64,000 nt of DNA. Source: Fimbriimonadaceae bacterium. GTDB lineage: Bacteria > Armatimonadota > Fimbriimonadia > Fimbriimonadales > Fimbriimonadaceae. Both the position numbers and the translations under genes were made by a program. A model generated the notes under the pieces. That model ran no database searches. It saw nothing but the letters and a program-made list of their open reading frames with translations, and had not been told where the DNA came from. The stretch is taken from positions 558,001 through 622,000 of the forward strand of contig JALHNM010000001.1 of NCBI GenBank assembly GCA_022843485.1. The letters run 5' to 3'. Below, one piece after another: positions 24,014 through 26,770 of this stretch; position 1 is the first letter of the stretch; each line of letters opens with the position of its first letter.

Positions 24014-25285
24014 CTAGGCGGCCCGGGCGTAGCTCGTCTCGTCGTCGCTCGAGAGCGGGGTCGAGACCTTGAGGAGCCGCTCGACGCTACGGCCGTCGTC
24101 CGGGGCCACCGCGTGTCCCAGGAGCAAGTGGAGGGCCCCGTTCGGTCCCACTCGTCCGACGAGCCACGCCCGTAGTCGCTGCTCGAGCCGTTGGCGCACG
24201 ACGGCCGCCGCCGAGCCGGTGTTCGGGAGGACGACCGCGAACCCGTGCTCGCCGAACCTGCAGACGACGTCCACGGACCGCACGATGGATTTCAGGCAGT
24301 CGGCGACGTCGGCCAGGAAGTCCCGCACGCTGGAGTCGCCGTAGAACGACGCCATGGCCTTCAGGCCGTGGAAGTCGATCCGCACGACCGCACACTGCCG
24401 CCCATCGGCACTGACCCGGTGAGTCTCTTCGGTGAGCCGGCCGAGGAAGTAGCGCTCCGAGTAGATCCCGGTGAGGGGATCGATGACGGCAGGCTCTGCC
24501 GGCATGTCCGCTCGGAGTTCGAGGTCGGCCTCCTCCTCGCTCACGAGGATCTTGCGGAGCTTGCTCATCGACTGCCGCAGAATGTGGCTCACGTAGTTGC
24601 ACGAGATCCCGAGGCGCGCGGCGATCTCGGTCTGGTTGAGCGAGTCGAAGTGGAACATCACGACGACCTCTCGCTCGAGCTCGCGCAATTGTTGGATGGC
24701 GCTCTCGAGGACGACCCGATCCTCGAGCGAAACGCTGCTCGCGCTATCGGAGGAGTCGAGCTTGTCGAAGTCCGTGTCGCCATCGTCGTCCTCGACGATC
24801 GGGGCGTCGAGCGAGGTGACGCGCAGGAGCTCCTGGGTCGCAGCGACCTCGCGGACGGCCTGTTCGCTGACCTTGCACGCTTCGGCGACCTCGCGGTCCG
24901 TCGGCTGGCGGCCGAGTTCGACCTGGAGTTCGAGCGCGGCCTTGTTCAGCCGGTGCCGGAGCTCCTGCACCCAGGCTGGGTGGCGGATGATCTGGCTCTT
25001 ATCGCGCAGGTAGTGCTTGATCTCACCCGCCACGAGGTGCGTGGCGTAGGTGTTGAACCGGACACCGTTCGCCGGGTCGAACTTCGAGAGGGCGTTCAGG
25101 AGGCCGATGTAGCCGACCTGGGCGAGGTCCTCGATCGGCTCGACCCCGCTGAACCGACGGGCGATCCGCTCTACCAATCCCGCGTACTGCAGGATGATGA
25201 GGTCCTTGAGGTCGGGCCTTGGGTTCTGGACGTAATCCAGGACCAAGGCTTCGGCGTCGTTCTTCCTTGCGATTGCTTCCGACAT
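24014..25285 (-). CDS. Group-3 sigma-70 factor fused to a degenerate GGDEF domain
   Basis: Of 423 aa. Residues 30-100: sigma region 2 (IEDLAQVGYIGLLNALSKFDP, VRFNTYATHLVAGEIKHYLRDK). Residues 100-160: region 3. Residues 195-245: region 4 (LNQTEIAARLGISCNYVSHILRQ helix-turn-helix). This is SigB/SigF/WhiG-like. Residues 266-375 match a GGDEF domain from VIDPLTGIYSERYF to VVLPNTGS. The signature is GEHGF (345-349), and the first metal Asp is replaced (RID, 302-304), so no cyclase activity is expected. The RxxD inhibitory-site motif is kept (R336-D339). The start ATG follows GGAGCGAAC. It lies 100 bases downstream of pilC. I infer a sigma factor controlled by c-di-GMP. Confidence 0.9.
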   Translation of the reverse strand: MSEAIARKNDAEALVLDYVQNPRPDLKDLIILQYAGLVERIARRFSGVEPIEDLAQVGYIGLLNALSKFDPANGVRFNTYATHLVAGEIKHYLRDKSQIIRHPAWVQELRHRLNKAALELQVELGRQPTDREVAEACKVSEQAVREVAATQELLRVTSLDAPIVEDDDGDTDFDKLDSSDSASSVSLEDRVVLESAIQQLRELEREVVVMFHFDSLNQTEIAARLGISCNYVSHILRQSMSKLRKILVSEEEADLELRADMPAEPAVIDPLTGIYSERYFLGRLTEETHRVSADGRQCAVVRIDFHGLKAMASFYGDSSVRDFLADVADCLKSIVRSVDVVCRFGEHGFAVVLPNTGSAAAVVRQRLEQRLRAWLVGRVGPNGALHLLLGHAVAPDDGRSVERLLKVSTPLSSDDETSYARAA

Positions 25286-25305
25286 GTTCGCTCCGTCGAT
25301 GTCTT

Positions 25306-25357
25306 GCCGGAGTCCTTTCCGGCGCCCTGCCTTGCCCATCCTTGGGCCCCCGGCAGG
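25306..25357 (-). promoter_or_regulatory. Stacked hairpins in the leader of the sigma-GGDEF gene
   Basis: A nested hairpin (CCTGCC/GGCAGG enclosing GCCCA-agga-TGGGC) is followed by GCCGGA-6 nt-TCCGGC, between the pilC stop and the sigma start. No T run follows, so a simple terminator is unlikely. It could be an attenuator, an mRNA-processing site or a small-molecule leader; I could not match it to a known riboswitch. Confidence 0.35.
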
Positions 25358-25385: not shown

Positions 25386-26588
25386 TTAGTTGTCCACGCT
25401 GTTGACGATGCTGAAGATCGGGGTCATGACCGAGACGGCGATGAAGCCCACGACGCCGCCGAGGAAGATGATCAGCAACGGCTCGATCATCGAGGTGAGT
25501 CCCTTCACCGTGTCCTCGACCTCCATATCGTAGAAGTCGCCGACCTTGACGAGCATGTCGGACAGACGGCCCGACTCCTCGCCCACGTCGATCATGTGGG
25601 TGACCATGCTGGGGAACAGGCCCGACTCGGCGAGCGGCTCGCTGAGGCGGCGCCCCTCGCGGATACTGGCCCGGGTCGAGTCGATCGCCCGAGCGAGGAC
25701 CTGGTTGCCCAACGTCTCGCCCACGATCTCGAGGCTCCGCATCATCGGCACGCCCGCGTTGATGAGCGTCCCGAACGTCCGGCAGAAGCGGGCGACGCTC
25801 ATCTTGAGCGTCAGCTCGCCCATGATCGGCACCTTGAGCTTGAAGAAGTCCATCTGGTAGCCGCCCCTTGGGGTCTTGGACCAGAGCTTGAGGCCGAAGA
25901 GGAAGCCCCCGATCGCGAGGAGGATGACCCACCAGTAGGCGGACATGAAGTCGCCCACCCCGAAGAGGAAGGCGGTCATCGTCGGCATCTTCACGTTCAT
26001 GCCGCTGAAGATGTCCTTGAACTTCGGCAGCACGAAGCTGAAGAGGACGAAGAGCATGAGCTGGGAGAAGATGAGGACCAACACCGGGTACATCATCGCG
26101 CTCTTGATCTTGCTCTTGACGGCCGCCTCGTACTCGAGGAAGCCGCTTAAGCGGTCGAGGATCGTGTCGAGGATGCCGCCCAGCTCGGCCGCTCGGATCA
26201 TGTTCACATAGAGCTTGTTGAACACGTCCGGGTGGCGGGAGAGGGCGTCGGCGAGGGTCGCCCCGCCCTTGACATCGGTCGTCACCTGGGCGAGGGCCGG
26301 CTTGAGGGCCGGGTCCTTGCACTGGGAGTGGAGGATGTCGAGGCACCGCAGGATCGGGATCCCGGCGTCGATCATCGTCGCGAACTGGCGCGAGAAGACG
26401 ACGATCGCCTTCGGCTTGACCTTGCCCTTGAACGCCTTCTTCCCCGGCGCACGGGTCTCCTTGAGTTCGAGCGGTCGCATGCTCGCCTCCCGGAGCTGGG
26501 CGAGGAGCAAAGCCTCGTTCTCAGCTTCGGCGACGGCCTTGACCTGCTTGCCGTTCCTGTCGATCGCGGTATAGGCGTAATAAGGCAT
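25386..26588 (-). CDS. pilC: Type IV pilus inner-membrane platform protein PilC
   Basis: Of 400 aa. Two tandem T2SF/GspF domains: residues ~70-190 (FSRQFATMIDAGIPILRCLDIL ... FLEYEAAVKSKIKSAMMYPV) and ~270-395 (ARFCRTFGTLINAGVPMMRSLEIV ... EPLLIIFLGGVVGFIAVSVMTPIF), with three membrane helices. PilC links the assembly ATPase to the growing pilus. The partner genes pilB/pilT are not adjacent; the pilMNOPQ operon is 13 kb away. The sigma-GGDEF gene follows on the same strand. Confidence 0.94.
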   Translation of the reverse strand: MPYYAYTAIDRNGKQVKAVAEAENEALLLAQLREASMRPLELKETRAPGKKAFKGKVKPKAIVVFSRQFATMIDAGIPILRCLDILHSQCKDPALKPALAQVTTDVKGGATLADALSRHPDVFNKLYVNMIRAAELGGILDTILDRLSGFLEYEAAVKSKIKSAMMYPVLVLIFSQLMLFVLFSFVLPKFKDIFSGMNVKMPTMTAFLFGVGDFMSAYWWVILLAIGGFLFGLKLWSKTPRGGYQMDFFKLKVPIMGELTLKMSVARFCRTFGTLINAGVPMMRSLEIVGETLGNQVLARAIDSTRASIREGRRLSEPLAESGLFPSMVTHMIDVGEESGRLSDMLVKVGDFYDMEVEDTVKGLTSMIEPLLIIFLGGVVGFIAVSVMTPIFSIVNSVDN

Positions 26589-26642
26589 CCTGCCGTACCC
26601 CTGAACCGGCCGGAGCCCTCCTGGCCCGACCGCACGAGGAGA

Positions 26643-26650
26643 TTATCGGC
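26643..26650 (-). promoter_or_regulatory. Possible pilC promoter, -10-like GCCGATAA
   Basis: GCCGATAA, identical to the -10 of sigma-28/WhiG-type promoters, lies 55 bases upstream of the pilC start. The matching TAAA -35 element is not present; GATAAT within it could equally serve a sigma-70 factor. Confidence 0.35.
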
Positions 26651-26770
26651 ATCCCATGAGGGTGATCCCCACGGAACAATGCGGTTTTCCCGGGTCGGCC
26701 CAGGTCCTTTAAGTTTGCGCGGGTCGCCGCAAGATCGAAGACCTCGTAGGGGACTTGAGGGTTCCCCCGC

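Follow-up and report, generated by a model that had tools for sequence, protein, structure and literature searches.

A phylum-wide sigma factor fused to a degenerate GGDEF domain: a candidate cyclic di-GMP receptor linked to type IV pili in the Armatimonadota

The closest described precedent for control of a sigma factor by cyclic di-GMP (c-di-GMP) is the actinobacterial RsiG-WhiG pair, in which the ligand sits on a separate coiled-coil anti-sigma factor and controls a group 3 (flagellar-clade) sigma; by one account no other sigma/anti-sigma complex is known to be a c-di-GMP target, and the switch requires the separate anti-sigma (PMC8325347). The RsiG-(c-di-GMP)-WhiG complex of Rubrobacter has been proposed to act on type IV pilus genes (PMC8325347). 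Two other principles are also established. GGDEF domains with a dead active site and a retained inhibitory-site (I-site) RxxD motif are used as c-di-GMP receptors in PopA and PelD, although the former is a response regulator and the latter a membrane protein, with no sigma factor attached to either. Built-in sensory parts govern sigma activity in ECF41 and CorE, which are extracytoplasmic function (ECF) sigmas with sensory C-terminal extensions, and in OrbS, but these are of the ECF type (no region 3), carry SnoaL or metal-binding extensions and respond to no nucleotide second messenger. Cyanobacterial SigF, which lacks a GGDEF domain, is a group 3 sigma with a link to type IV pili (pilA1). 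Here we describe a gene in a 64,000-nucleotide stretch of a Fimbriimonadaceae genome (the window) whose product appears to join the two principles, a sigma factor with a built-in sensor and a dead-GGDEF receptor, in one chain. It is probably a group 3 sigma factor that senses c-di-GMP as a single component and is linked to type IV pili. A fusion of a sigma factor to a c-di-GMP-receptor GGDEF domain was not found in the open-licence papers searched, in keeping with the first-pass annotation of this DNA, which knew of no described system of this kind.

The gene is a single open frame of 423 amino acids on the minus strand (24017-25285), with its ATG at 25285 and its stop codon at 24014-24016; translation from an upstream in-frame ATG (25339) would lengthen the protein by 18 residues (window 25286-25339), and alignment of the homologs (MSE...) favours the start at 25285. 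As had been read from the sequence at the outset, this one frame encodes sigma regions 2 to 4 followed by a GGDEF fold, and four Pfam domains are found: sigma-70 region 2 (PF04542, Sigma70_r2; residues 31-97, 24995-25195, E = 2.4e-15), region 3 (PF04539, Sigma70_r3; residues 108-170, 24776-24964, 8.7e-12), region 4 (PF04545, Sigma70_r4; residues 196-245, 24551-24700, 1.8e-11) and a degenerate GGDEF domain (PF00990; residues 266-406, 24068-24490, 1.7e-21). The last of these matches at 77.1 bits against a Pfam cut-off of 23.8. In an AlphaFold2 model built with 51 homologs the predicted local distance difference test score (pLDDT) averages 80.6 and is about 90 or more in most ten-residue blocks of the GGDEF part, and Foldseek matches the model to sigma factors and to GGDEF domains, among them isolated GGDEF domains and PleD-c-di-GMP complexes. 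The secondary structure of the model includes a continuous helix, residues 229-259 (24509-24601), that connects sigma region 4 with the linker and is possibly equivalent to the stalk helix that precedes GGDEF domains.

We compared 98 fused homologs with 28 other GGDEF domains from four of the same genomes, with PleD included in the alignment. All five active-site positions are present in 27 of the 28 ordinary domains and in none of the fused homologs, and both catalytic acids together, the mark of an active diguanylate cyclase, likewise occur in 0 of the 98. In the window protein the GG(D/E)EF signature is replaced by GEHGF (residues 345-349, 24239-24253), confirming the substitution noted in the first-pass annotation, and relative to PleD the losses are N335 to A312, D344 to R321, E370 to H347 and E371 to G348. 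The same annotation held that the first metal-binding aspartate had become arginine, which is incorrect: the residue aligned with PleD D327 is D304 (24374-24376), an aspartate retained here and lost in most homologs, many of which have Arg, Glu, Gln, Asn or Lys at this position. In the sequence-weighted alignment the top residue of the active-site columns reaches a frequency of only 0.22-0.45. Judged by its residues, the GGDEF domain of the fusion sigma cannot make c-di-GMP.

The I-site shows the opposite pattern. In PleD, an active diguanylate cyclase in which the I-site serves feedback inhibition, c-di-GMP is held by R359, D362 and R390 of one domain and R313 of the next (PMC7288161); the window protein shares this fold and all four residues, with PleD R313, R359, D362 and R390 aligned with its R290, R336, D339 and R366 respectively. 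The primary RxxD motif is R336-S-V-D339 (24269-24280), where the first-pass annotation had placed it, and is kept in 97 of 98 homologs; the secondary-site arginine R290 (24416-24418) is also found in 97 of 98 and R366 (24188-24190) in 94 of 98. The full quartet is present in 92 of the 98 fused homologs as against 5 of the 28 ordinary GGDEF domains, and in a conservation ranking over 138 GGDEF-domain columns (sequence-weighted, effective number about 80) the first three places go to R336, D339 and R290 and the fifth to R366. Some caution is called for, as arginines may occupy the secondary site from either of two fold positions (PMC8041772). The PleD I-site does not account for a second motif, RLxEE in the first GGDEF helix (R283, E286 and E287; 24425-24439), which is near-invariant among the fusion proteins and is possibly a contact surface toward the sigma part or a second subunit. 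The combination of a dead active site with an intact RxxD and accessory arginines, by which degenerate GGDEF effectors are recognised, is thus found here, and the domain bears what appears from its residues to be the footprint of one kept for its c-di-GMP pocket. The proposal that the sigma factor binds c-di-GMP directly is strongly supported by this evolutionary pattern, if short of proof, because no feature of the domain is better conserved than the complete PleD-type site, and the active site is eroded in every homolog.

The fusion is widespread. Full-length homologs in one frame are present in 39 of 41 related genomes, the remaining two being only 72% and 86% complete, so the fusion is not a chance event. 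A survey of the Armatimonadota with a 51-homolog profile (E below 1e-60) found the family in at least 192 of 291 genomes, nearly always in single copy, a lower bound obtained with six candidates scored per genome. In a tree of the sigma regions, made with FastTree and rooted at the midpoint (support values not printed), the fused proteins group in a single clade, separate from the other sigmas of the same genomes, and the unfused proteins of G101 and G102 nest within it beside a fused member. Because of this nesting the fusion looks ancestral, with the GGDEF part lost in G101 and G102, and the tree indicates an ancestral, phylum-wide arrangement and not a local oddity. It is likely that the whole phylum inherited a sigma factor that is itself a c-di-GMP receptor, an enzyme domain having been turned into a ligand-controlled, built-in anti-sigma. 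At four loci (L144 and L145 of family f6, L146 and L147 of family f17) the sigma remains and the GGDEF part is badly eroded or gone. The whole gene is absent from a subset of genus g19, namely G110, G111, G121 and G123, in which all candidates were scored, and G112, G119, G124 and G126, which gave no profile match.

The sigma part itself has the group 3 layout, with regions 2, 3 and 4 present, region 1.1 absent and about 30 residues preceding region 2. Its description in the first-pass annotation as a group 3, SigB/SigF/WhiG-like factor stands as regards the layout and the nearest NCBIfam families, which rank as SigB/SigF/SigG, then cyanobacterial-type SigF, then FliA/WhiG; membership of any one of them does not, as the top model (TIGR02980) scores 184.5 bits against a curated cut-off of 234.35 and all subfamily cut-offs are missed. 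Because it falls below every curated cut-off, the protein is on these scores a subfamily of its own, and not SigB, SigF, SigG, FliA or WhiG itself.

Directly upstream of the fusion gene, on the same strand and separated by a gap of 100 bp, is pilC (T2SSF family; 25386-26588, PF00482, 4.5e-64), as stated in the first-pass annotation. This order holds in 31 of 33 Fimbriimonadales loci, one of the exceptions ending at a contig edge, and in 10 of 20 further loci, mainly from other families. In families f31 and f32 the sigma gene closes a pilus operon with the order pilO-secretin (pilQ)-pilB (MshEN)-pilT-pilC-sigma (pilO is annotated in f32), and in f31 the pilC and sigma genes overlap by 4 bp. The eight g19 genomes lacking the sigma also lack its cognate pilC and pilT and have only distant paralogs, while the six sigma-bearing g19 genomes and the window genome have both cognate classes (67-73% identity for pilC, 63-66% for pilT). 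One of the eight, G110, is a 5.2 Mb genome in one contig, without the sigma-GGDEF gene, its pilC or its pilT. This conserved operon position, together with co-loss with the particular pilC and pilT, supports the suggested pilus link, and the fusion sigma would be tied to one type IV pilus system of the cell. For flagellar genes, the other target suggested in the first-pass annotation, no evidence was found, though none was looked for. Elsewhere in the window genome (contig C12, L315:6978-11131) pilB (MshEN) and pilT lie apart from pilC and the sigma gene with an HDOD-domain gene between them, an order also seen in the relatives L316 and L317. Downstream of the sigma gene in the window are DsbA- and RibD-like genes. 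The fusion is not put forward as a switch of the RsiG-WhiG type.

A candidate group-3-type promoter, GGATC-N14-CCGATAAT, lies upstream of pilC (26642-26668, minus strand), where CCGANNAT is conserved. Among the Fimbriimonadales, CCGA(C/T/G)AAT or a close variant precedes pilC with a GG 18-19 nt ahead, and CCGANNAT lies within the 150 nt before pilC at 24 of 29 loci of this order; of the other gene starts in these stretches, 18 of 315 have it (Fisher p about 6e-21, for loci that are related to each other). The window sequence TGCCGATAAT is an exact match to GCCGATAA, the flagellar/WhiG -10 element as used in PMC8325347, which adds a further resemblance to the RsiG-WhiG system. Such a motif would suit a pilC-sigma operon transcribed under a group 3 sigma, perhaps the fusion protein itself. 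In the window genome GGRNY-N14-CCGANAAT has five matches versus none for the control, all 6-53 nt before a start codon. The four other than that upstream of pilC (L180, L181, L183 and L184) are 6-14 nt before start codons, and matches so close could reflect leaderless-like transcripts or chance; the genes at L180 and L184 resemble each other and that at L181 has a weak SH3-like match. In a relative (L247/L317) there is one CCGACAATC upstream of pilT. The promoter of cyanobacterial SigF, TAGGC-N13-17-GGTAA, was also considered and set aside, with four matches in the window genome against nine for a reversed control; its elements are thus not enriched here, a further difference from that system.

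A mechanism can be proposed in which a c-di-GMP dimer occupies the I-site of the dead GGDEF domain. Such ligands cross-link two GGDEF domains in PleD and DgcR (PMC8041772, PMC7288161), and by analogy with PleD the dimer would be held by R336, D339 and R366 of one domain and R290 of the other. Helix 229-259 could carry the change to sigma region 4, and a pair linked in this way would engage RNA polymerase poorly, so that joining of the sigma is changed or blocked and the c-di-GMP level of the cell sets transcription of the targets with no separate anti-sigma. One likely target would be the sigma's own operon with pilC, through the sigma-28/WhiG-like -10 element (an autoregulatory arrangement), and the wider role would be control of one type IV pilus system.

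As to direction, our guess is that high c-di-GMP switches the sigma off, as in RsiG-WhiG. The reverse, in which the c-di-GMP-bound form is active because binding lifts an autoinhibition that the GGDEF domain exerts on the sigma regions and so turns on the pilus genes, draws on the same I-site conservation and on the fact that some families encode MshEN-type pilus ATPases together with the sigma, which suggests pili working at raised c-di-GMP. Nothing in the sequence decides the sign of control, and RsiG-WhiG, functionally the nearest precedent, is off when c-di-GMP is high; we regard an active bound form as a tentative alternative.

Rather less probable is that the GGDEF part is a structural or protein-interaction module without a nucleotide ligand, its conserved Arg and Asp residues being engaged in salt bridges or in contacts with a partner. 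The FimX-PilZ-PilB complex of X. citri shows that a degenerate GGDEF domain may serve purely as an adaptor, and because E286 and E287, beside R290, are near-invariant yet outside the PleD I-site, another interface presumably exists. However, the conserved set is the exact four-residue c-di-GMP site, with one residue from another part of the fold, and the complete quartet is not required in the ordinary GGDEF domains of these genomes. That the I-site instead takes up (p)ppGpp, a different cyclic dinucleotide or some other nucleotide seems improbable; the PDB holds PleD with (p)ppGpp as well as with c-di-GMP, but the retained residues are those described for c-di-GMP, and of the nine GGDEF domains of the window genome (which also has five MshEN domains) at least six are strong matches with intact motifs. 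The expectation that the I-site would be lost where c-di-GMP is lost was considered for the reduced genome G147 (about 1.5 Mb, scanned stretch by stretch) and dropped, as G147 still has one intact diguanylate cyclase (REC-PAS-GGDEF) along with the fusion sigma, a pairing in keeping with a sigma that senses c-di-GMP. Finally, it is scarcely credible that the two parts are made or act as separate proteins, the fusion being incidental, as the few deep lineages with a sigma but no GGDEF domain (G101 and G102) are outweighed by a single uninterrupted frame in nearly all of the roughly 98 homologs and by a fusion kept over more than 30 families, with the unfused members nested inside the fused clade.

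Returning to a c-di-GMP-sensing sigma tied to pili, we note several observations that weigh against it. The I-site quartet is incomplete in six homologs, and because RxxD and the R390 equivalent are common in ordinary GGDEF domains (19 of 28 and 20 of 28 respectively), part of their conservation could be structural. The GGDEF part has been lost or eroded in some deep lineages, and the relative placing of the sigma and GGDEF domains in the AlphaFold2 model is uncertain because the predicted template modelling score (pTM) is 0.40. The sigma occurs with only distant relatives of pilC in G147, G148, G151, G153 and several f12, f13, f14 and f29 genomes, so the idea that it always travels with its pilC was rejected as an absolute rule; as the link is not absolute, targets other than the pilC operon are likely, at least in lineages without the cognate pilC. 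In the window genome neither the pilB-HDOD-pilT operon nor pilT is preceded by the motif, and genome-wide counts of the promoter pattern GGRNY-N14-CCGANAAT fail to separate relatives that have the sigma from those that lack it, for which reason a genome-wide regulon was dropped and none is claimed.

If the fusion acts as proposed, it would be a second, independent route from c-di-GMP to a sigma factor besides RsiG, with a type IV pilus link in both, and no path from second messenger to the initiation of transcription could be shorter. It would offer a testable one-protein switch and a natural part for c-di-GMP-controlled promoters, and it would be a clear case of a dead enzyme domain retained for its ligand site alone, in a little-studied phylum.
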